From the NCBI RefSeq assembly GCF_016906535.1, contig NC_057373.1:1364001-1428000 (forward strand): a stretch of DNA of 64,000 nt, read 5' to 3'. Position 1 is the first letter of the stretch, and every line of letters begins with the position of its first letter. Shown piece after piece: positions 1,703-48,387 of this stretch. The notes under the pieces were generated by a model. It was not told where the DNA came from, ran no database searches, and saw nothing but the letters and a program-made list of their open reading frames with translations. The translations under genes and the position numbers were made by a program. The DNA comes from Rhizoctonia solani. Its lineage: Eukaryota; Basidiomycota; Agaricomycetes; Cantharellales; Ceratobasidiaceae.

Positions 1703-3143
1703 ATGAAACTGGCTGTTCTCGCACTTTACTTTTCGGCCCTAGTAGGTAGTGCATCAGCCCAGGACTTTAAGTTGTATGGCTACGCAACTCTGGGTGGAGG
1801 TACGAACCCTATAGTAGTGCTTAGCAGCTTTGCTAAAATTCATTCAGGAACGACTGGTGGAGCTGGAGGAACAGTCACCAATGTCACAACTAGAGATGCG
1901 CTCATTGCGGCTGTTAAGGTATCTCGACACATAAACACTGTGTGCATCCTCTAAACTCTAGCTAGGGAAATTCTCCCAAAACTGTTTATGTGTCGGGAAA
2001 CCTGGGAAGTAGTTCAACGCGTATCACTGTAGGGAACAATACGTAGGTAACCCTAAAACATACCCACGCGCAGCGTCAAATTATCACTATAGGTCTATTA
2101 TTGGCATTGGGAGCTCAGCAATTGTTGAAGGAGGAGGATTCAACATCAATAAAGCTTCTAACATCATCATTCGTAACCTTGTCATTCGCAAGGTCAAGGG
2201 AAATGACGGAATCACAATCCAAAAGAGCAACCGTATATGGGTTGATCATAACGAGTTCTACTCCGATACTGCACATGGATTCGATTACTACGATGGACAG
2301 GTTGACATCACACATGCAGATGACTACATTACGGTTTCCTGTAAGCACCGAACTAGTTCCACTTCATACGGACATTAATATGATAATAGGGAACAAATTT
2401 CATGATCATTACAAGTCGTCTTTAATCGGAGGTGACCCTGGTGGTGCCGCTGAAGACACTGGGCATTACAAGATCACGTAGTAGGTAATCCTATTACTTG
2501 AATTAGATTTGTAGCACTGATAGGATGATCACAGTCATCACAACTCCTGGAATAACGTACATACCCGAACCCCAGGTATCTAAACTCTTATTCTGTTCAT
2601 ATTCTGGTGCGCATATATACTCGTGAAATTGGCAGCCATTCGCTTTGGAGCGGTGCACGTTTACAACAACCTATTAGAAAACGTGGTCTCCCAGTAAGCT
2701 TTCAGGGTCTATGTACTTTCAGAATACTAACACTCCCTAGAGGAATCCATACACGCTCGTATGGGCAGGTGCTCGCCCAGGCAAACGTCTTTATCAACGT
2801 TACAGAGCCGATTAGTTCATATGGATTCGTTATCCCAGATGATAGTCCAGTAATTGTTGTTCATTTAAGTGCAAACTAACTAGACTCATATTCTCGCGTT
2901 CACAGGATGATCCTAAAGGAGATTATGAACCCGATGGTTATGCTAACGAATCAAGTATGTAGTTTTTAGTATGGCGGATTACTCTGTGTTCATACTATTT
3001 CAGATAACCTTTACATCAGCTCTGGTCCCAACAACATTACTCGCACGGGTACTTTTACAACTGTGCCTTACTCATTCCCCACAGACGCTCCTTCATCGTT
3101 GAAGGCGATCGTAGATAAGTATTCGGGTGTAGGAAAGATATAA
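1703..3143 (+). CDS. Secreted pectate lyase, PL1 family, copy 1
   Basis: An extracellular enzyme that cleaves polygalacturonan by beta-elimination. The protein starts with a signal peptide (MKLAVLALYFSALVGSASA) followed by QDFKLYGYATLGGG. Introns of about 50 nt break the gene; the first, at 1800-1847, keeps GGG-TTGGAGG in frame. Spliced text gives the PL1 landmarks: WVDHNEFYSD (calcium-site Asp region), DYYDGQVDIT, VSWNKFHDHYKSSLIG and the catalytic-arginine motif RTPAIRFG. The C-terminus is DKYSGVGKI with TAA at 3141-3143. Exon-by-exon alignment with the downstream copy confirms the model. All family motifs are present, so I expect a functional enzyme. PL1 membership is clear; pectate rather than pectin lyase is an inference from the motifs. 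Confidence 0.9.
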
Positions 3144-3575
3144 AGGAATAAGAACTGTATCTTACATTGAAATTTACTACATTGGCATTAATATGGATAA
3201 GCAACATGCAATCGTTGTTTCACACCTTGATCGATCGAATTTCTAGCAAGCTCCCGAGACCCCGGCTGCTGATATTGTCTATCCCTCCCAGAAAACCGGT
3301 GGCTGATATGCTACGGCCCGCCGCACCGTCGTGAGCTCTGAATTGTGGGTTCTGTATTAACTTCTGGAAGAACTTCTTAACACTCTCCTTCAATTTAACT
3401 TACCAATCATTCACATCACGCACGAGAACCTAGCCACATAAGCGGATATTCGATGCTCGCCGGCGATAATATTACATATAAGGGTATATTTAAGTCTTCA
3501 GGCACTTGTGCTGAATACCCAAGGCCCCTCCTAGTAAAACCCCTTACTTTGAACTGCCAGACTTTTGAAAGAAAG
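3144..3575. promoter_or_regulatory. Spacer and promoter between the pectate lyase copies
   Basis: This is 432 nt between the stop of copy 1 and the ATG of copy 2. An AT-rich TATA-like stretch (TATATTTAAG, 3485-3494) lies about 80 nt before the second ATG. An upstream ATG at 3453 is in a longer open frame but lies before this box, so I take the ATG at 3576, which begins a signal peptide. Confidence 0.45.
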
Positions 3576-5032
3576 ATGAAGCTTAGTTGTGCTGCTATTG
3601 TCTATGCATGTCTACTGAGTGATGTCCTGGCCCAAATACCAGACTTTAGACTCAAGGGTTATGCAACCCTGGCAGGAGGCACGAGGGCACCTATTTGAAT
3701 AACGATAAGTTGGCTAAAATCCATGTAGGGACGACGGGTGGAGCTGGAGGGGCAGTGGTAAACGTTACCACCAGAGATGAGCTGCTTGCAGCCGTCAAAG
3801 TATGTCGAAAACCTTGATGCACACACGTTTGAATGACAAACCCATATTTTATAAGGGACATCTGCCTAAAATAGTATATGTACTGGGAAATGTTGGTGGT
3901 AATACCACAACGCGCATGAGTGTAGGAAACAACACGTATGTCCTCGTTCCGGGACGTATCGTGATATCCAGGCTTATATCGTTCAAACAGATCCATTATT
4001 GGTGTCGGAAAGTCAGCTATTATCGAGGGAGGAGGATTCAGCGTCAACAAGGCCTCAAATGTTATCATCCGAAACTTGATCATCCGTAAAGTCGTGAACA
4101 ATGACGGGATCACAGTCATTCAAAGCAACAACGTCTGGATTGACCACAATGAATTTTACTCGGATACTGAGCATGGGTTCGATTACTATGATGGGCAGGT
4201 AGATATTACGCGTGGTTCAGATTATGTTACTGTGTCTTGTGAGCACTTCAGTTGGCGATGGATTTTAAGCTAATATGAGAGGATAGGGAATAAGTTTCAC
4301 GACCACTACAAGTCATCACTTATCGGATCTAGCGAGAAGAATGGAGATGAGGATACTGGTCATTTCAAGATTACGTAGTATGTATTTTGGTCAGCTTTTC
4401 ATGACGCATATATCTAATCACAAGATCCTAGCCATCATAATTCTTGGAACAATGTCCACACGCGGACTCCAGGTAGGTATCAAGCCGTGTTCTCTGTTCT
4501 ACGAGTAAACATCATCCAGCACTCCGTTTTGGAACTGTGCACCTTTACAATAACCTGATCGAGAATGTCGTCTCTCAGTGAGTTAGCACATTACCCCAGA
4601 CACAAGACAACTCACCCATTTTGTTCGAGGGGTGTCCATACACGGTCTTATGGACAGGTATTGGTTCAAGCCAACGTCTTCCGCAACGTCAAGGAACCCA
4701 TTAGTACTTATGGATTTGTTATTCCCGACGACAGCCCTGTAAGCTGCAAACCAAGGCTAGCAAAAGTCTACGACTGACATGACACCTATTCAGATTGATC
4801 CTAGTGGAGACTACGAACCCGATGGTTTTGCCAACGCATGGAGTCAGTTAGTTTAATGACTCCCATTTTCGTCCGTCCTCATCCGTTTTCAGATAACCTG
4901 TACATCAACTCGGGTAAAAATAACATAACGCAAATAGGTAACTTTACCAAAGTGCCTTACTCCTTCAAGCCCGACGCGCCTTTCCTAGTGAAGGCTATCG
5001 TGGACAGGTACTCGGGCGTAGGAAAGATTTGA
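3576..5032 (+). CDS. Secreted pectate lyase, PL1 family, copy 2 (tandem duplicate)
   Basis: A paralogue of the preceding gene in the same orientation. Signal peptide MKLSCAAIVYACLLSDVLA is followed by QIPDFRLKGYATLAGG. The same exon order gives TTGGAGGAVVNVTTRDELL, WIDHNEFYSDTEHGFDYYDG, NKFHDHYKSSLIGSS, RTPALRFGTVHLYNN and VDRYSGVGKI, with TGA at 5030-5032. The first intron lacks a GT donor: the equivalent of the copy-1 donor GGAG/GTACG reads GGAG/GCACG, so it must be a GC-AG intron (about 3688-3733 to the AG before GGACGACGG). All other splice sites checked are GT-AG. Catalytic landmarks are intact. Compared with copy 1 the loop after SSLIG differs (SSEKNGDEDTG against GDPGGAAEDTG), so the copies have diverged and are not a recent identical duplication. 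Confidence 0.88.
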
Positions 5033-5090
5033 AAAAAGGGTATCACCATTATACACGATCTGTACTATAAAATACACACAAAATCGATAA

Positions 5091-6766: not shown

Positions 6767-8574
6767 ATGGATACCTCCGATGAATCCTCAACATCCATGT
6801 GAGAATTTTTTTTCTGGGACTGGGGGAGCAGCTACTGACCTAGCCACGGTGTACAGGTACCGCCAGAAGGAGACTGGAGACTGGGACGAACGCTATGGAG
6901 CACCCATACGTCCACCTGTGTAAGTAGTGGTCCAATTATCCCCTCTGGGGGGTAAGTGCCCAACGGGTGCGAAGGAACGAAGACGGTCGTAATGGATCCT
7001 GCGACTCACGTGTTGTCCCAACAGCCGCTAGGCTACAGAGCAACGACGTGAGTGGCAGAATACATTAGGACTGTCGTCGTCCCTTCGCACTCGCTCCTAA
7101 CAGGCCTTTAGCCACCTCCTACTAACCCTAGCCACGATCAACCGATCAGTTCCAAGCGCAAGTTTGTGAGCATCTCAGTTCAGACATCTCCTGTCGAAGA
7201 GGTCTGCCCGCCCCTCTGTCGCGACAACGGCAGCTCCAGCGGCAGCTCACCCGACCCGGAAACCGATGAGGAGGGCCATGCCAACAAGACCGGACTCAAG
7301 CGTGCCAGGTATGTCAATATTTCACATAACACTAGCCAGTAGTTCACAACCGATTGCGTTGCTAGCTCGACTACAAGCAGCCAGACATCCAAGAAGGCCA
7401 AGGTTGCCAAATCATCCACATCGCCCACCAAGGCTCCGGCCGCGAAGCAACCCCGTCGCGATACGATCATCTCTCTCGATGGGGCCTCGCCCAAGCCTCG
7501 TTCCATCTATGCACCTTCTCCTACTCCTCTCCAATGCACTTATGTTTACCCGCGTGCCCTCGGCCCTCCCCGCCGGCCGATGGATCTCCGTCGCAACAAG
7601 GGTGCAAAGCCCATGCCGGACATTCCTGTGCTCTCTGAGCTCGCCCCCAAGGCCCCCACCGATCCCAGTCCTTCCGCTCCTACTGGTGGTGCGGAACCTC
7701 AGGCTGAAGGTGCTCCAATGGACGTTGATGATTCGTACGTGATTACCCATCGATGCCCCATCACTTTTTCTCGCGAGTTCGAAATGCGTCGCCATATCCG
7801 GACGGTGCACATTGCCGAGGAGGTTCGTGCTGTGGTCGAGGGTCGTCTTGCCCGATCCGATGCCAAGGTAAGTCCTGCTATACAGTCATTATGGGCATCT
7901 GCTGATCAATTATAGGTTATCCCGGAGAACTGGGACGGCAAGAGCTTGATTAGCAAGCCAACCTGCGCAGGGTGTGGTACTACCTTTTCCCGGCCGGATG
8001 CGGTCCGTAGGCATCAAACCGAGGTGAATGCAAAGATGGAGAATGGTATCTGTGTCGAGTGTCCTGGACCAAAGGTAAGTTTACAAAATGGATATGTTTT
8101 GTCCAAAACTCATTCGCTATATAGGTGCACATTCGTCGAGGGCCCCGCAAGGACGTCCACTTGCCCACGCCTGATGCCTCGCCGGCGCCACCAACGTTAG
8201 CCCCAGCACCAATCCCTGCGCTCATGATGCCAATGAGCACAGGGATTGGCGCTGGGAGTCACGTCCCAATCGCGCCTGCACCGGCTCCAGCCCCCGGCCC
8301 TCTGGTGATTCCTGCGGCCGTCTCGATGCCAGCTCCTTCAACTTTGGCTCCGGCCCCGGCCCCTATTTCTGGTCTAGTTCCCATCGCTCCAGCAGCCCCT
8401 GTCGTTGCCATACCATCTCTCCCCTCTGCCCCTCTCGTATCTGGCGCTGGCGCCCCCAGCGACGCGGCACCCGCGCCAGTCGCTCCGGTCGTCGCCCCAC
8501 AAGCCCCACCGGCTGCGAGAGATCACGCTGAACTGGCTGAAGTCGAGCTAGAGAGCGAGGATGAATGTAACTAG
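6767..8574 (+). CDS. C2H2-type zinc-finger protein with Ala/Pro-rich tail
   Basis: A likely nuclear DNA-binding protein. I start it at the ATG at 6767 (MDTSDESSTSM). Exon 2 (YRQKETGDWDERYGAPIRPP) joins across a roughly 200-nt intron with a perfect TACTAAC branch point at about 7118 to VHDQPISSKRKF. A Ser/Lys-rich basic region (SSQTSKKAKVAKSSTSP) could be a nuclear signal. One clear finger reads CAGCGTTFSRPDAVRRH near 7965-8020, with further cysteines in ICVEC. An upstream finger-like segment HRCPITFSREFEMRRHIRTVH lacks the first cysteine of a normal pair. The tail from 8125 is almost entirely Ala/Pro with acidic end ESEDECN and TAG at 8572-8574. The stop codon lies inside the left arm of a 35-bp hairpin. 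Target genes cannot be inferred. Confidence 0.7.
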
Positions 8575-8643
8575 GTTAAAAAATCAAACATTTTTGTTAC
8601 ATACGTCCTATGTAACAAAAATGTTTGATTTTTTAATCTAGTT
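8569..8643. repeat. Near-perfect 35-bp inverted repeat spanning the stop codon
   Basis: The left arm 8569-8603 and right arm 8609-8643 pair at 34 of 35 positions around a 5-nt loop (8604-8608). The single difference (G8575 against T8637) is a G.U pair in plus-strand RNA. The inner 28 bp are perfect. The arms are flanked by TA dinucleotides at 8572-8573 and 8639-8640, so a palindromic TA-target mini-element is possible. A hairpin that shapes the 3' end of the zinc-finger mRNA is the other reading. Removing the stretch between the TAs would still leave a TAG after AAC. Confidence 0.85.
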
Positions 8644-8779
8644 GCAGAACCCAATCTCGGCCCCTTGTTTTTCCTCACATGGCTTCAACGTGCTCCCCAT
8701 CGCAACTCACTGAGGACCCGGCCCCCCCGACTCTCGACATCCTCAAGCCATCAACGACCCATATTCAGTGATGTGACTC

Positions 8780-8884
8780 GCTCAGTTGGAAGGGTTTGGG
8801 TACCCAATCCCGTGTTTGTTTCAATTTTTCTAGTACTAATTGAAGTGAATGTGAGGTTGGGTGCCCAAACCCTTCTGACTGAGC
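8780..8884 (+). repeat. 47-bp imperfect palindrome with G.U-type mismatches
   Basis: The left arm 8780-8826 and right arm 8838-8884 flank an 11-nt loop (8827-8837). Of 47 paired positions, 36 are Watson-Crick, 10 would be G.U wobbles in plus-strand RNA and one is C.A. There are no transversion-type mismatches. It lies about 200 nt beyond the zinc-finger stop codon, probably within or just past the 3' UTR. It may be the foldback of a small-RNA precursor or a decayed inverted-repeat element; the sequence alone does not decide. Confidence 0.8.
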
Positions 8885-9239
8885 AAGACTTACCAATGTC
8901 TATCGACCATTGATTGTTTTTCGATGCCGTCAAAACCATTAAACCCAAGATCATATGTTTTACTTTGTTCCTGTATATCTCCTAGTACTTTTCGAGGCTT
9001 TCACACTTGTCAGCGACATGGCATGGGCTTTGACGTGATGTTTCGCTTTTACGTGCGTTTCCGCCTGGTTTTGTACTGCCCCCATGCCTAATTCACTCCA
9101 TCTTGTATACTGCATGCCCCCAATAATTCAATATGAACTTTGCATCTGTTTGTACCATGCAAATCATTTCCTTTTATGGGCGGTGTGTAGCTGGTGTGGC
9201 TCCAACTTGACCACCACATACATATTTGTTGTCGATAGA
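8885..9239. other. Intergenic region with no recognised gene
   Basis: This T-rich stretch of about 350 nt lies between the second hairpin and the RING gene. I see no coding signature or RNA gene. It presumably holds the promoter of the RING gene. Confidence 0.4.
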
Positions 9240-10221
9240 ATGAATTTCCTTCCCCCTTCGTCGTTTTTCAATGAGCTCTTGAGTATGGACTCGAGGTGAT
9301 TCGTTTCAGCCCGTCCAGTTGTCCTTGGAGCAAGATGCATACGTTCGGGAGCTTACGCGTCTGTTTCAGCTCTCGAGATGAGCGACAGTCGTTCATCCGC
9401 GGTCTACCCAGCATTCCAGAGAAAGACGTCTCGCGAGGTACATCTCCATTTTATTCCTCTCGAATTTATTTAACTTAATACATGTGTTTATAGACGATAC
9501 ATGCGCCATATGCCAAGAAACCTTTCTCGCGATCATCGCCACCCAAGAAATGGCGAGCGTAATGGAAACGCCCGGTCTACCGGAAGAAGACATGGGAGTC
9601 GTCGAGCTCCCCGGATGCGCACACCGGTTCTGTCGGAAAGAGTGAGTCCCCCTCGCTCTGCCTCTCCATACCGTCCACAGCGACCGACCGTGTGATGTAC
9701 TATGCATACTTGTTGGTGTCCCATGGGTGTAACTGTACTGATCAGAGTGATATATATTTTCCAGTATCGCAACGTGGGTTTACTCTTCGGTACGTTGTTG
9801 GTTTTTAATGTATCATATTCATGGTACCTCGGCTCCCGGTCTGATGCGGTGAGGGGCGGTGTGTATATGTGCGTGGTAACCTTGACAGCACTCAACGTGC
9901 CCCGCGTGCCGACACGAGTTTCTACCGTCGTCTTTACGAGAGGAAGAGCACGAAGAGGGCGCGAGCATACTAGATGCACGGGAGATGATTCGGGTGCTGC
10001 AGTTGAGAGCGTCGGGACTATACGATGACGCCGACGAGGCGCGGCATAACCCTTTCAACGAGGGCGGAACTGGGACCCGTGCGCGTTCCAACCCTGTCGA
10101 TCGGGAGGAGCAAGAATACTTGCGACGGATGCAGGACGAGTTGTTGAGTTCTGTATTTGGTAGAAGCGAGAGACCGAGGGAGGATAGTCCTCCCCGCGAG
10201 TCGTTTGGGATGTACTCTTAG
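9240..10221 (+). CDS. RING-H2 finger protein, probable E3 ubiquitin ligase
   Basis: A RING domain protein expected to recruit an E2 and ubiquitinate substrates; its targets are unknown. The RING begins after the intron at 9438-9493: DDTCAICQETF gives the first cysteine pair, LPGCAHRFCRKDI the central Cys/His set and HSTCPACRHEF the last pair, split over two further introns. Upstream is SFIRGLPSIPEKDVSRD, seen next to this RING type in other basidiomycete proteins. The C-terminus is charged (PVDREEQEYLRRMQDELL) and ends MYS at 10221. The ATG at 9240 (MNFLPPSSFF) with a 74-nt intron 9296-9369 keeps the frame. The skipped stretch encodes, in another frame, a very protein-like segment (VQLSLEQDAYVRELTRLFQL); see findings. 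The RING identity is firm, the 5' model uncertain. Confidence 0.78.
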
Positions 10222-28435: not shown

Positions 28436-29934
28436 ATTTGTTACGACAAAGATACGTGATTTGAATGTGTTTTTTTAGCCAGCCACTTTGTTATTTCTTT
28501 TTTGGTTTCACCCCACTTATTGGTTTACCTGTATGGTGCTTTGATTGTGGACTCGTTATGGATGTAGTTCGTATCTTCGGGAATAAAGTTCTCCTTATCA
28601 AAGTAACTCATAAGTAATAACACCCTGTAAAACGAAGCTTTCTCTCCCATTTTCTAGGGTACGAGAACTCCAGATATCGATGGATGGACACGTTGAAGAA
28701 GTTTGTGGCCTCTCATAGAAGTGATGCCTGGCGGATCCCGGCTATCGATGAAGGAATTTTCTGATAGCAATGTACTTCAACAACTAATAATAATGAGTCT
28801 GGAAATTTAATAGTTACATGAAGTAGATGCTCTCTCACACAATATGATATATAATCTGCTGCTTCCCCTATGTACATGCCCTACCTGATGAATGTAACCA
28901 CAGGCACCTAGTAGTAGATCAATCGTGAATCTTGCAAGAATGTCTGCCACAACCAGTGTCACAATCTCTCCGTAGGAAGTGCCAAGCTGGAATAGAACTT
29001 CATTTCGAGGCGAGGGTTAGCTCCCGAGTATGTGCGCAGCAACGTGTATTTCGATACTATAACGCTGCTGGGCGTGGGCACGCGACCGGAGATATAGACT
29101 TCAAAAGAAGTCGTATATTCAATCGGAAAAAAAACTTCGGAGTAGGGCGTGTGAGTGTAGGTTCTTGCTCGGATTTTTGCAGGGCATACAATGGCTATAT
29201 GCGGTCACGTGAAGGGTGGTTTACTCTGCCATTGTAGACGCTTCCTGGAAAGAGTTATTATGATAGCGTAATCCCTGCAAATTGAGGGGTCGCAAATCTG
29301 CCCGTAACTATAAACAGGCCCCAGCGGCAAACTCAACGATTCAGCACTGTGTTGGCAATGATCAACGGTGTCATCCAACTTCACCCCGCGTACCGATGCA
29401 GACTGCGATCAACTGATTTACACACCATGAACCTCGATTTGGGTTTACGGCTCATGCAAGCATCACATCGGCCTGTGCTCGCGCCCATTGTATGCGCCCA
29501 TGGGTTTCGTGTAAGCAGCTGCCAACCCACTAGGACTTGCCCTCGCGGCGTCTGGATTGGCCAACGTATATTTCACGCGGGTGCCTCTCCCGGTCTATTT
29601 CCCGAGCCCCGCTGTTATGATTATGCTTCAAGCTCTAATAATGATGTCGATGCTAAGGCCAGTGCCGAGTTCCCAGCCCTCGATGGTCTTTATTCTATTC
29701 CACCCACTGCGTCCCAGGGGTTTTTTTTTTTCAGAACCACATCCGCTTGCTTTACTCTTAAATGATTCAACCCCAAGCCTTCCGGCTCCAACTGATCCCC
29801 AGGTAAGCATCCAAGCTTAAGCCGGATCAATTTCGTTTGTGATGATTTTCACACTACTCCAGGAAAATCGAACCCTATCGGGGGGATAATCACGGGGGTA
29901 TCGTGTTGAAGAATCAGCCTCACGGTCAATAGTA
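28436..29934. other. Intergenic region up to the transposon
   Basis: About 1.5 kb. The first 200 nt are the transporter 3' UTR. A TATAAAC stretch near 29309 precedes an open frame at 29349-29765, and an overlapping frame at 29557-29820 is hydrophobic. Neither shows a known domain, so this may be the remains of a gene cut off by the transposon at 29935, or chance. Confidence 0.35.
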
Positions 29935-30141
29935 CACTTGCGCCCAAAAAGATTGAGCCACGTGAGCTCAAATCAATGACGCTCACGCGTCACCCGCACG
30001 ATTGAGAATTCGTTTACGATGTAATAGTAAATTATGTAGATACAGTAGTATAGAACATATGTACAAAGTTTTAGATCGAAACTAAGTCTCCTCGTGGAGA
30101 TACGCGTGAGCAAAATTTTTGGGCTGGCTCATTCTTTTTGA
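29935..30141. repeat. Left terminal inverted repeat of the Tc1 element
   Basis: A 207-bp repeat whose complement is 31344-31550. It contains an outer motif AAAAAGATTGAGCC and, near its inner end, an inverted near-copy (GGCTCATTCTTTTT), plus CTCACGCGT and ACGCGTGAG. These are candidate paired transposase-binding sites. Confidence 0.9.
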
Positions 30142-30218
30142 GCATTTTCAAATTGCACCTGCAACTGCATGCATGCACCCAAAATGACATGCAAAACTGA
30201 ATAATTTGGATACAAATT

Positions 30219-31256
30219 TTAGTATTTGGTGTTTCCACCTTTAGCTAAATACACAGCTTGTACTCAACGCGGTAATGAATCATACAAATTGCCGATATAT
30301 TTCGGGGAAATTTGTTTCCATTCGTCCCTCACTATTTTCCATAATTCTTCCTTATTCAAAGCGGGAGGTTGGTGAGTACGCACGCGCTCCTTCAGATGCC
30401 ACCAGACGTTCTCAATTATATTCAAATCCGGGCTTTTTGACGGCCATGGGAGGACGCTTACGCCCCAACTGGCAAGCCAACGTTGTGTCAGCCTGGCTGT
30501 ATGCTTTGGATCTTGGTCGTGCTGGAATGTAATGTTGAACGGGGTGATTTTATAGTCGGCGAGGGTTCCAAAGAAGGCGTCCCCAAGGATTTCAATGTAT
30601 CCCGGGGCGTTCAGCTTGCATCGTATAAGGTACAATCGCCCGACTCCCTCTTGGGTAATGCACCCCCAAATGAAGATACCCCCGCCACCATGAGATATCG
30701 TCTTTTTGGTGTATCGGGGATTATACAGGGACTCACTAGGCCGCCTCCAGTAATATTGGCCGCTGTTGGCCCCAAATAACTTGATTCGGACTTTGTCCAA
30801 GAAGACGATGTTGTCCCAGCGTGATTGTGGCCAGAATAATCAACTGTGGGCCCACGCGCGACGGGCTTTTCTATGCCGATAAGTGAGCAGGGGTACTTGG
30901 CGGCGTTTGTACGGCCGTAAACCCAGCTCTCGGAGGTAGCGGCGGAGGGTAGAGGACCCGACGGCAGGGAAGTACTGCCGTCTAATATTTGCTGCTGTTG
31001 GTACTCTACTCCAAGCTAGGGCCAAAGCAGCAAATCTGACGTTGCTGGGGGTTAATTTTTGTGGGCGCCCAGGAATGGGATCGTGTCGATCGAGTGGGCG
31101 GTCAGTAAGTCCATACTTGGCCCAGATACGACCGACAGTTGCGTGAGAGACCTTGGTCTGAGGTTGCAAAAGCTGAACAATAGCCCGATCTGAGTATTTG
31201 AGCTTTTTCAGCGCAATTATCTGAGCCTTAGTCTTGGGACTAGTGTATCAAGCCAT
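30219..31256 (-). pseudogene. Tc1-type transposase with three in-frame TGA codons
   Basis: The frame from ATG at 31256 to TAA at 30221-30219 is 345 codons, the usual Tc1 length. It holds helix-turn-helix sequence (KAQIIALKKLKYSDRAIVQL, then ATVGRIWAKYGL), the GRPQKLT hinge and a DDE domain: first Asp in NIVFLDKVRIKLFG, second in FQHDQDPKHTA, and the Glu in SPDLNIIENVWWHLK, matching DD34E spacing. Three TGA codons lie in the same frame: the third codon (31250-31248), after AHS (30842-30840) and before VQAVYLAKGG near the end (30266-30264). Each could derive from CGA by one C-to-T change. There are no frameshifts. It cannot make full transposase as it stands. Confidence 0.9.
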
Positions 31257-31343
31257 TCGCGCACTTTTGGCAGGTATTCGAGCGTAAAAAGGGGTGGTAA
31301 ATGGCACTCGATGAGGGAGGACCAAGTAGCTTATATAAAGTGA

Positions 31344-31550
31344 TCAAAAAGAATGAGCCAGCCCAAAAATTTTGCTCACGCGTATCTCCACGAGGAGACT
31401 TAGTTTCGATCTAAAACTTTGTACATATGTTCTATACTACTGTATCTACATAATTTACTATTACATCGTAAACGAATTCTCAATCGTGCGGGTGACGCGT
31501 GAGCGTCATTGATTTGAGCTCACGTGGCTCAATCTTTTTGGGCGCAAGTG
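31344..31550. repeat. Right terminal inverted repeat of the Tc1 element
   Basis: Exact complement of the left repeat as far as read by eye, ending with GCAAGTG before the TA target. The inner boundary at 31344 is where the arms diverge (TCACTTT against GCATTTT). Confidence 0.9.
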
Positions 31551-32021
31551 TATATAATCCTTACGAATGTATTTACTGATGTTTGGATGTATACTTACTA
31601 TAAAGTTCTGTTATCGGCTCTCAAGTACCTCAGTTTGACTGTAGAATAGTGAACTGAGGTACGTATTATCATTCTGTATCGTTCTATCCAATTTGCTTAT
31701 CATCATGTAGATAACTATCATTTAGATTCAATATAATTTAAAATATTGGGGCCAAGACTACAGCTCCATCATAACTGGCCTGGTAATCATTGGTGATTAA
31801 TTTACCAGTATTGTGTGCAAGCCGCAGAGAGAGACAGAGAGAGAGTAACCTGGATGAAATTCCTTTTACAACAAAGGCAAAGCGAGCCATATACATGTGT
31901 TCATGACTAAGACACTGACTAACAATCCGGCTAAACGTATGATCTCCACATGATGTTGTTTGATTATATCGAGTATCAATCAAGACAACCACAATAGTCA
32001 GCATATTGAGACAAAGCACCG
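31551..32021. other. Intergenic region between transposon and Fe-ADH gene
   Basis: About 470 nt of AT-rich sequence. A small hairpin with perfect 11-bp arms (GTACCTCAGTT at 31625-31635, complement at 31652-31662) is present. Otherwise I see only the promoter area of the next gene. Confidence 0.4.
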
Positions 32022-40780: not shown

Positions 40781-43700
40781 CTATCGATAGCCATTGAAAC
40801 CAGGCTGGAACTGGTTTTGAGGTTGAAATCCAAATCCAGTTTGCTGAGGAGCCATAAAGTTGGCACCGGTCGGTTGGCGAAGAGCATCGTATTTATCTAA
40901 GGACGTAAAATCAGACTTGGACCTTTTAGCGTTCATTGAAGTATGTACCTGCAGATTGAGGATCACTAGTGTTACCTCCAGCGAAGGTCCCAGCTTTCAT
41001 GGAGGCAAATACATTTGCCGCTGACAAGTTATTCTGTGGGGGCGCGTTGCTCGGTGGTGAATTGAAAGAGTTTTGTTGAGACTCTGTCCGAAAGAGAGTG
41101 GTTAATACCTATCTGACGGTACGGTAGTGATGGCAGGCTACGTACGTGGTTGGAATCCACCACCATTGAACATCCCGCCCATACCCGTTGGCTGCATGCT
41201 GAGAGGCGGTGATTGTGAAGCCATCGGGCTGGGCGAGAACCCAGTTTGTTGCGGTAGCATGAAATTGGGTTGGTTGGGTTGGAATCCGGTAGGCTGGCTC
41301 TGCAGGAAACTCGGCTGTGAAGGTTGGAACCCGGTAGGTTGAGATTGTAAGAAACTAGGCTGAGAAGGCTGGAAGCCTGTGGGCTGTGACTGAAGGAAAC
41401 TTGGCTGTGACGGTTGGAACCCAGTCGGTTGACTTTGTAAAAAGCTTGGTTGAGAAGGCTGGAACCCGGTCGGTTGGGATTGCAATCCACCAAAGGACGG
41501 AGTCGAGCCAGGGCGGGTAGGCACAAACGAATTGAATCCACTAGTAGTCGGGATTAGTGGCGTCAGCAATGATTGATTCGCGGGAATGGGTGCAGGTGGA
41601 CCGCGGGGTCCCAAGATGCCTGTTTGCTGGGCGGTGAGCAACTGGCCTATAGGTGCGGGCGAGTTACCCATCCCCAATCCAACTTGGAAACTTGAAGGAA
41701 CGGTGCCCGGTGACTGCATTCCCGTTGGTTGTGATACAATGGGGGCTGATGGAGGACGCATCTGCTGGATCTTTGCGAGGATATCAAATTGTGAAGACGC
41801 GGGCTGCGAAATTGGTGCTGCAGGAGGGTTCGTAGTAGCAGGTCGTTGAATCGGGGGTGAAGCGACCGGAGGGACTGACACGGCAGCTGGTGCTGGTGCT
41901 GGTGGTGCTGGTGGCGGCGTAGGTGCTACAGGCGCGACGGGCGCAACTGGGGCGGGAGGCGGTGCAGGCGCAGGAGGCGGAGGTGCAGGTGCAGGGGGAG
42001 CAGGTGCAGGAGCGGGGGGAGGAGACAGCGCAACAGCTGGAGCAGGAGAGGCTGGCTTTGCGCTGCTGGGCCTAGGGGTCCACGCATCGTCATCAAACCC
42101 ACTGGCCACAGGAGCAGCAATGGGAGCGGTAGAACGTTCTTCATTCGCAGCAGTTGGGGAACTTGTAAGGACACCTCCCGTAGGGCTAGTGATCTGCGGA
42201 GTACCACCACGGGAAATAGACCCAGTATTTCCGAGCACACTGCCATCGACTGCAATTGGAGCGGTCTTACTCGATGGAGGCGGGCGTCCCCTGCGAGTAT
42301 TCTTGAGCTGACCATTTGGCCCAGTGAACAAATTCGGTGCGGGACTGGTCGTAGCTGAGCGGCGGGGAGACGCAGCATTCTCTTGGGCCTGTAGCTGCCG
42401 TGCCAACTCTTCGTCCTTGCGCATTTGTTCTCGGCGAGCAGAGTCGTCTTCGTGTTTCCAGCCCTTCTTCTCAATCGCCTTCATCACACGAATGATATCT
42501 CCTTCGCGCAGGCCCAACGAACGCAGAGTAGAATCCTTAATATCAGCGACAATCGACTCGTCGATCTTATCCCTATTGAACGAAGCAGCATAGCGTGTGC
42601 AATCATCCATATCGCAGCCAGCGCTGAGGAAGAAATCGAACCAATCGATCTGTGGCTTTTTGGGCTGCTGTGGAACCGGTCGCGAAGGCGTGGAAGGAGG
42701 ACGCGAGTTGCGGCGTTCAGCAATGACTGACAGGGGCACGTTATCATCATCTGGGGCAGTCGCGGGACTCTTGCCAGCATTGATAAGCTTCTCGACATAT
42801 GCCATGTCTTCAGGAGACATCTTGGCCGAAGGCACATCGATGATTACACCGTTGGACTTGTGTAGCTTAATTTTGCCGTTCTCGATTCCAAGGAATTCGG
42901 CTTCAACCTTGAACTGACCAGTACGATCGTGCCAGATTCGAGTTTTCCCAGGCCCTGTCAATGGTTAAAATATCTTCATCTGCGCCTTCCATGCACCAAA
43001 CTTACGAGGACCGTTGTTCGACCTTCGCGGCTCAGAATCAGTAGACGGACGAGTACCTGTGGAGGACCTGGCAGCTTGTTTGGCGGCTCTATGGAGACAA
43101 TGAATTTTTCTGTCCATTTTATGAGTTGATCAACGCACTTTTCTTTCTCAAGTCTCTGCTGCTCTAGACGCTCGAGTTCACGAGCCCTCGCCTCCGCCTC
43201 TGTACGTTCTTGTTCGCGCTTCCGTCTCTTCTCGTCTGCAGCTCTACGCTCTGCCTCTTCGCGCTCTTTGATCTTTTCCAGGCGCCTCTGCTCCGCCATT
43301 GCAGCAGCTTGTTGTTCCGCAGCATTGGACGTAGTTAACTCTGTGGTAGTGTCATCTTCATCGTCTTGTGACTGTGAGCGGGCAAGTGTAGAACTACCTT
43401 GAAGCTGTAAAGAACTCGGGTTAGCGTAAAACAACAGCCCTTTCCGAGTATAACTCACTTCAATGTAAGAACTGGGAACAACGCCCTCTTCGCCTTTCAT
43501 ATTCCTGCATTTCCACCACTCTTCGCTCTCCTCACGATTGATAACAATCAGAGTCTCGCCTTCCTTGACACTCAGTTCGTCCGAAGCTTGGGCTGTGAAG
43601 TCGTAGAGCGCGCTAGCTTGCTCTCCAAGGGGGCCGTCGTCATCGTCATCCTCGGGGTTGGGAATAACAGAATCAGGAGACTTGGCAAATCGAACGCTAG

Positions 43701-46810: not shown

Positions 46811-48387
46811 TGTGATGACAATACTATTCGTGTGTGAGTGAATAACTATTTAATAAGAGACAATGTATGGTTGGATGTTCTTGGACGAAGAGGTTGCCAC
46901 TAGCCACCCTATATTTATAAGTAACGAAGGCTGTGTTTCCGTACGCACCCCTATTTCTAATTTACCAACCCACAAACCTCCCCCCAGTTGCGCCCAGATT
47001 GCCCGATCAATTGGGAGCGACGCCCCCTGAGGGGCTACTGGGGCTCAAGGTGCCATGTAAGAGTTGACTTTTACTATAATAGCGACTCGGTCGATGGGAT
47101 ATTGTCGATTAAAGGCTTATATAGGATGTATGGTTGGAACAGCCACTGAAACCAATATGATTGACAATCAGAAATTTCCGCGTTGTGTGACTCTTTCTAC
47201 ACGACAACACCTTAATTTCCTTTTTCACATGGACTGTGGAGTTACGGCCATATGGTAGCATGTGCCATGTGCCATGAGCTGAAAGAAAATGCACCAACAA
47301 AGAAAATTAAAGGTCCAAAAATCAAGTAGGTGGCGGTTAGTTACTCACCCATGCCTGCGATCTAAGCAGCTCAAAAGACAAAGTCGTTAGTTGCATGGGC
47401 CACTGTGTATATACCACAAACCTTACAAATTGATTTTGAGGTCAGGTAGATTCGTTGATGTTAAATATCTGTACACAAGTTGCAGATGTTCAGCTGACTC
47501 AAGGCAAACCTTTGATTGTTAAATAGATGGACGCTCATGTCCTCCGTAGTTCCGTAGAGTTCATATATCTACTCCACAAACAATCGGTACTGATGACACT
47601 TGCTGCCACCCGATCGCCACGCTATGAACCTCGGATGAATACAGACCAACATGCCATTGTATTTTTTCGGAGCATAGCTACTAGAACCTTTCAAGTATTC
47701 ACGCAATTGAATCAATTTCAAGTAGAAGAGGACGAGTGTATCCGGATTCCACCAATAACTTATTTTAATAGAGCGAGAATATAGTTAAATGTCGCGTCTC
47801 CACTATCACCGACCTGTCTCGGGTAGAATGTAGATTTGGAGAGAGAAGCGAAGGGCGGCTGGAGAGAGCGTAACAATGAAGGCGAGCAATAGTCTTTGGT
47901 ATCAGAACATGGTCTTGATAAAATGGTTAAGTATATCAAGGAATAGGGGTAATGCCCGATAGGATTAAGAATGATATCTCCGACCAAAAGTCAGCTCCAA
48001 GAGTGGAGCACTGCTGCGTTCTCGACAAAGGAGGATTCACTATTATGGAACTTGTGGGGGTAATACCCACCTGATGACTCGTACATGATGACTCGTATGA
48101 GCGAATTAAGCCTACCAGTACCACCTCACGATTACGGGTGAGCCACTGTAGTTCATCTTGATACTCTGCAAAATCCGCGGGAACTCGTGAGCCCGAAATG
48201 CTCGAGAAACTTAAGCGAGGCGCCCGTGGTAATCTCGTTTATGCTTCTCGAGCATTTCGGGCTCGCGAGCTCCGATGGATTTTGCAGAGTGATATGTTTC
48301 GAATGGACTATTTCCCACCCAACGCACGTGACCGGCGATCGTAATAATTTACTTTTGTAGCCGACACATCTTCACTTAATTTGCAAC
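46811..48387. other. Gene-poor stretch before Rpc5
   Basis: About 1.6 kb. It contains the promoter of the small secreted protein, a direct repeat of TGATGACTCGTA at about 48073-48099 (two copies two bases apart), the hairpin element at 48164-48289 and the promoter of the Rpc5-like gene. No ORF here has recognisable content. Confidence 0.4.
48164..48289. mobile_element. MITE-like hairpin element, 126 bp, with TGATA target duplication
   Basis: The ends are CTCTGCAAAATCC and its exact complement. Arms of about 56 bp match with eight differences around a loop of about 14 nt. TGATA occurs directly on both sides (48159-48163 and 48290-48294), fitting a 5-bp target duplication. There is no coding capacity. 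The superfamily cannot be assigned from one copy. Confidence 0.75.

Follow-up and report, generated by a model that had tools for sequence, protein, structure and literature searches.

Downstream of a C2H2 zinc-finger gene in Rhizoctonia solani lies a DNA palindrome whose arms differ almost only at positions that can still pair, as G.U wobbles, in plus-strand RNA. The locus raises the question of whether this pattern is a chance outcome of decay, the product of biased mutation on one DNA strand or the mark of a folded RNA that is of use to the cell. We pursued this question in the 64,000-nucleotide stretch of DNA that contains the palindrome (hereafter, the window) and in further sequence of the same genome. 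Our preferred reading, to which we give a probability of about 0.5, is that a snap-back palindrome arose 3' of the zinc-finger gene and that selection has preserved its inner stem as a helix in plus-strand RNA, the probable user being an enzyme of the RNase III class. The gene and the parts of the palindrome are the following.

6767 to 8574, plus strand: C2H2 zinc-finger gene, a six-exon model drawn by eye, 454 amino acids
8735 to 8779, plus strand: outer 5' arm, pairing with 8885-8929, freely decayed
8780 to 8826, plus strand: inner stem, 5' arm of 47 nt, pairing with 8838-8884, differences nearly all G.U
8827 to 8837, plus strand: loop of the palindrome, 11 nt
8838 to 8884, plus strand: inner stem, 3' arm of 47 nt, pairing with 8780-8826
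8885 to 8929, plus strand: outer 3' arm, pairing with 8735-8779, freely decayed

The palindrome starts 161 nt past the zinc-finger gene's stop codon, in the sense direction, and further along this strand, at 9378, lies the first ATG of what may be the next gene (read by eye only). Relatives of the zinc-finger protein come mainly from close quarters, with 20 of the 21 found being named Rhizoctonia solani or Ceratobasidium (best E 2.1e-279).

Recounting the inner stem reproduced exactly the tally of an earlier, sequence-only reading of this DNA, which had reported 36 Watson-Crick pairs and 11 transitions: the 47 pairs between 8780-8826 and 8838-8884 include ten G.U pairs and a single C.A (8810/8854), with no transversions. 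Standard pairs (Watson-Crick plus G.U) thus make up 46 of the 47, as in the foldable, well-paired hairpin of a milRNA precursor. While its inner pairing stands, the earlier reading stopped short of the palindrome's full extent, missing 45 further pairs on each side. With a milder mismatch penalty, the palindrome extends to 8735-8826 x 8838-8929, or 92 pairs without a gap around the 11-nt loop. Its outer 45 pairs consist of 27 Watson-Crick, two G.U, six A.C and ten transversions, and a complementarity of 27/45 was reached by none of 200,000 random pairs of 45-mers drawn from the window. Inner and outer parts differ both in overall divergence (11/47 versus 18/45) and, more sharply, in the share of pairs that disrupt the helix (1/47 versus 16/45). 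The main new fact about the locus is that a single palindrome has decayed in two modes, G.U-biased within and free without.

Folding predictions were strong for either strand. Plus-strand RNA of 8770-8894 reaches -68 kcal/mol (z -11.1) and minus-strand RNA -55.9 kcal/mol (z -9.4), with 0 of 200 shuffles as good in each case. The sequence-only reading had named a stable fold confined to the plus strand, together with 20-24 nt reads, as support for a precursor; such confinement is not what we observe, and the good fold of the minus strand counts against our preferred reading. The inner stem also forms within a folded sequence of 461 nt, alongside a second hairpin at 8566-8646. An Rfam search over the inner stem returned only matches below the gathering scores, the best being mir-H5, whose 32.4 bits fall well short of the gathering score of 90.

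Among the alternatives, the one that survives best is that an unselected palindrome decayed in the ordinary way and that the abundance of G.U in its inner part arose by chance and was made conspicuous by the size of the search, the G.U feature having itself been selected out of a 64-kb window. We regard this as unlikely, though as a serious contender. As a neutral yardstick we took a palindromic foldback element of the same genome (window 48163-48290), for which a first look gave 37 candidate copies. We used 28 of these, some of them shortened where indels interrupt the ungapped reading, and omitted shorter or partial ones (some matching both strands, for example C16:3309749-3309857). Summed over the 28 copies, the arm differences comprise 98 G.U, 103 A.C and 101 transversions, with no significant heterogeneity (p=0.18). 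The premise of the earlier reading that random decay should produce both wobble types equally is thereby borne out.

Measured against this yardstick, at least ten G.U among 11 differences has a binomial probability of 1.0e-4, and the lack of any transversion among the 11, where one third would be expected, a probability of 0.0114. When only G.U and A.C are compared, the inner stem still departs from the foldback copies (p=0.0099). The 25 foldback copies with at least seven differences include none as one-sided, the top share of a single wobble class being 0.70 against 10/11 in the inner stem. A rank test that needs no boundary between inner and outer parts places the G.U differences closer to the loop than the other types (Mann-Whitney p=0.00036; G.U versus A.C alone, p=0.0098), and a permutation anchored at the loop matched the observation once in 20,000 trials.

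Chance is treated more kindly by permutations in which segment and strand are freely chosen, which give p=0.009 (1756/200,000), or p=0.015 (2979/200,000) when the types are redrawn from the yardstick. Simulated neutral decay equalled or beat the plus-strand energy in 74 of 2000 runs, or in 138 of 2000 when the better strand was taken, and gave as large an energy difference between strands in 166 of 2000. Since neutral simulations so often match the fold energy, the stability itself is not exceptional and the energy test is weak proof of selection. Two of the 28 foldback copies are, moreover, strongly one-sided in the other direction, with G.U:A.C ratios of 0:7 (L034 1501-1625) and 0:8 (L050). 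Transversions are also present in these two copies, and their all-A.C wobbles could be due to chance or possibly to a mutational strand bias acting on individual copies. In six weak hairpins from other parts of our survey, the differences total five G.U, three A.C and seven transversions. On balance, the G.U bias of the inner stem is probably real, though this is not certain.

The palindrome is not the only hairpin in its gene. Three others were found.

8566 to 8646, plus strand: second (stop-codon) hairpin, arms of 38 nt, loop of 5 nt, 36 Watson-Crick pairs and 2 G.U
8194 to 8264, plus strand: third hairpin, in the coding sequence, arms of 32 nt, no G.U, 3 A.C and 2 transversions
6964 to 7093, plus strand: fourth hairpin, in intron 6920-7149, arms of 48 nt, 2 G.U, 2 A.C and 4 transversions

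These emerged from a survey of 264 kb, comprising the window together with 20 stretches of contig 4, in which ungapped pairs were read and low-complexity arms excluded (dinucleotide entropy below 2.5 in the main survey and below 2.6 in the one with the milder penalty). Four of the seven palindromes detected lie in the zinc-finger gene or directly 3' of it, within some 2.2 kb (6767-8929). The other three are the repeated elements at 48163 and L016:5377 and a palindrome at 1917-2003 with arms of 21 nt. Against a background of one to three palindromes per 262 kb, four in 2.2 kb corresponds to a Poisson p of 2e-10 to 1.6e-8, uncorrected for the choice of place. The four-hairpin cluster in the zinc-finger gene is unusual, and its density far exceeds that of the remaining 262 kb surveyed on the contig.

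Each of the additional hairpins overlaps a distinct part of the gene. The stop-codon hairpin takes in the end of the reading frame (the two final sense codons and the stop), and both of its differences are G.U. The protein ends in ECN, an ending common to P0001-P0010 (10 of the 15 aligned relatives), and the last two codons of this motif together with the stop form the start of the hairpin's 5' arm. PAPIPAL and STGIGAG are the peptides encoded by the two arms of the coding hairpin. At the place of the window's STGIGAGSHV, the relative P0008 has SAGIGAGANV, and by hand translation of this low-complexity stretch, arm 1 of the window, if reverse-complemented, would encode that P0008 sequence; a near-perfect coding palindrome may thus be older than the window's strain. 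At the intron of the fourth hairpin, itself part of the by-eye model, P0001 and P0003 have residues that, on a hand reading, could be translated from the hairpin stretch of the window, and in the alignment P0002 and P0009 carry different inserted residues at the same position. Possibly, an alternative exon lies inside the intron hairpin.

Several other repeats were observed in passing. The element at L016:5377-5483 is another repeated palindromic element, with 11 first-look candidates. Within the window, terminal inverted repeats of 216 nt, 99% complementary and 1188 nt apart, bound a stretch at 29933-31552 that looks like a young DNA transposon; 1829-5033 is a tandemly duplicated stretch with copies about 1.89 kb apart that are 71-80% alike in pieces, presumably pectate-lyase-like to judge from its motifs; and 41237-41461 holds a degenerate tandem array of a 45-bp repeat.

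A second alternative concerns the birth of the palindrome, which on this account was a foldback MITE from the outset instead of a snap-back product; it would be compatible with later selection on the RNA. Such elements are present in this genome, as the repeats at 48163-48290 and L016:5377-5483 attest. The multiple copies that mark a MITE were found for 48163-48290, whereas 8735-8929, searched for in the 40.7-Mb genome both as DNA and by pattern, matched only the place itself. No target-site duplication was seen by eye at its ends, and the searches likewise returned no second copy of the stop-codon, coding or intron hairpin. The reach of these searches is limited in that strongly diverged relatives are missed, so the lack of a match does not prove rarity; those for the intron and coding hairpins missed even the hairpin's own opposite arm, and similarly diverged copies could escape. 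With these points in hand, we consider a MITE origin improbable. The palindrome instead has the character of a template-switch (snap-back) product, namely an inverted repeat with a short spacer and, within the sensitivity of the searches, without further copies. Because of this single occurrence, the short loop and the absence of gaps, we infer that it was born by template switching.

Strand-biased mutation is a less probable explanation still. It holds that G.U pairs accumulated without selection, either through C-to-T and A-to-G changes on the non-template strand of transcribed DNA or through deamination of methylated CpG on one strand. A C-to-T or A-to-G change on the plus strand, which is the sense strand of the gene, could have produced each of the G.U differences. 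The sequence-only reading had specifically proposed that several sites now TG in both arms were once CG in both; three sites are compatible with this history (8787-8788/8876-8877, 8813-8814/8850-8851 and 8817-8818/8846-8847), where the ancestral state is itself a reconstruction. Contexts of the CG/TG/CA type account for 7 of the 11 inner differences, compared with 72 of the 201 wobble differences in the foldback copies and two of eight in the outer arms.

A mutational bias of this kind should, however, also have struck the outer arms and the other hairpins of the same transcription unit, and the lack of a bias there disfavours it. The G.U:A.C ratio is 2:6 in the outer arms, 2:2 in the intron hairpin and 0:3 in the coding hairpin, the last being a poorer control because the protein also shapes its sequence; the stop-codon hairpin stands at 2:0. 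The inner stem differs from the other hairpin sequence of the gene whether the stop-codon hairpin is left out (Fisher p=0.0017) or included (p=0.006), and in total the remaining hairpin sequence, outer arms included, contains six G.U, 11 A.C and 16 transversions. CpG occurs at 0.94 of its expected frequency across the 264 kb read (TG 1.08, CA 1.07), and strand bias leaves the absence of transversions unexplained. The one-strand deamination of methylated CpG put forward by the earlier reading is thus disfavoured, although the changes in the inner stem may well have originated from the mutability of CpG.

The least likely account, that the inner 47 pairs are younger because one arm was copied anew in a subsequent template switch that restored the stem, after which the new differences became G.U by chance, draws on the lower inner divergence and on reports that template switching creates RNA stems and restores their pairing (as described in PMC8794818) and homogenises inverted-repeat arms in yeast coding genes (as described in PMC8604942), but it explains only why the differences are fewer and not why 10 of 11 are G.U.

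Selection against pairs that break the plus-strand helix would jointly explain the scarcity of A.C pairs, the absence of transversions and the border between inner and outer arms. Of the two causes that the sequence-only reading had offered, selection on the RNA fold is the one that gains support, from the inner-outer contrast (significant in the rank test and, less strongly, under free choice of segment and strand). On sequence grounds, we favour selection on the plus-strand fold over strand-biased CpG decay alone, and the pattern suggests that the folded RNA of the inner stem is useful to the cell.

In the mechanism that we propose, a template switch in the course of DNA replication probably gave rise to a palindrome with arms of 92 nt and a loop of 11 nt. 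Plus-strand transcription would then carry it as 3' untranslated or read-through sequence of the zinc-finger transcript, where selection on the inner 47-pair helix would have tolerated G.U changes and removed A.C pairs and transversions. RNase III-class enzymes recognise the shape of a helix more than its sequence and tolerate G.U pairs. For this reason we rate processing by such an enzyme as the likeliest use of the stem. The enzyme might be Dicer, producing small RNAs from the stem, or a Pac1/Rnt1-like nuclease, cutting the transcript ahead of the putative next gene. Domain matches to RNase III occur at four places in the genome and to Piwi at nine, where the matches are exon pieces and not gene counts.

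More tentatively, the zinc-finger gene as a whole could be a nursery of hairpins, with four separate births in the intron, the coding sequence, at the stop codon and at the 3' end, the last of which would be in service as an RNA helix. We find this broader idea doubtful. If it were true, the inner-outer border would record a small-RNA or RNase III site arising from a template-switch palindrome. The locus bears on how hairpin RNAs come into being and at what stage selection begins to act on them, since here the outer arms would provide a built-in control for the inner stem, making the onset of RNA-level selection readable from one sequence.

Published sequences offered little for comparison. 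Six short strings from the two 3' hairpins are absent from the main text of PMC8304579 and PMC8004440, both on milRNAs of R. solani, which print hardly any sequences. Strings of 14 and 17 nt from the same hairpins matched no papers, a result that means little because such sequences mostly sit in supplements. Nothing identified as this locus came up in literature searches either, by which we do not claim that it has never been published.

A comparison with known systems places the palindrome beside three classes of hairpin. Like the template-switch hairpins described in PMC8794818, it consists of reverse-complement arms set round a short spacer, has no second copy that could be detected and acquired differences later. 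The cases described there are mammalian microRNAs and rRNA stems. The candidate stem is longer than the 23-32 nt stems given in PMC8421224 for the Pac1 hairpins that follow snRNA genes. It resembles the Dicer-dependent milRNA and hairpin-RNA precursors of fungi in being a long, well-paired, G.U-containing stem that adjoins a protein gene, and the genome resembles fungal milRNA systems in having both Piwi and RNase III domains. Many milRNAs have been reported from R. solani, which according to PMC9757828 has the most confirmed and replicated milRNA loci among the fungi re-analysed there. The resemblance to Pac1/Rnt1 cleavage hairpins is that the stem exceeds 20 pairs and follows an open reading frame. 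Fission-yeast Pac1 is described in PMC8421224 as acting on stem-loops of at least 20 nt, at one of which it cuts nascent mRNA, and the inner stem is likewise a sense-strand stem of at least that length downstream of its gene.
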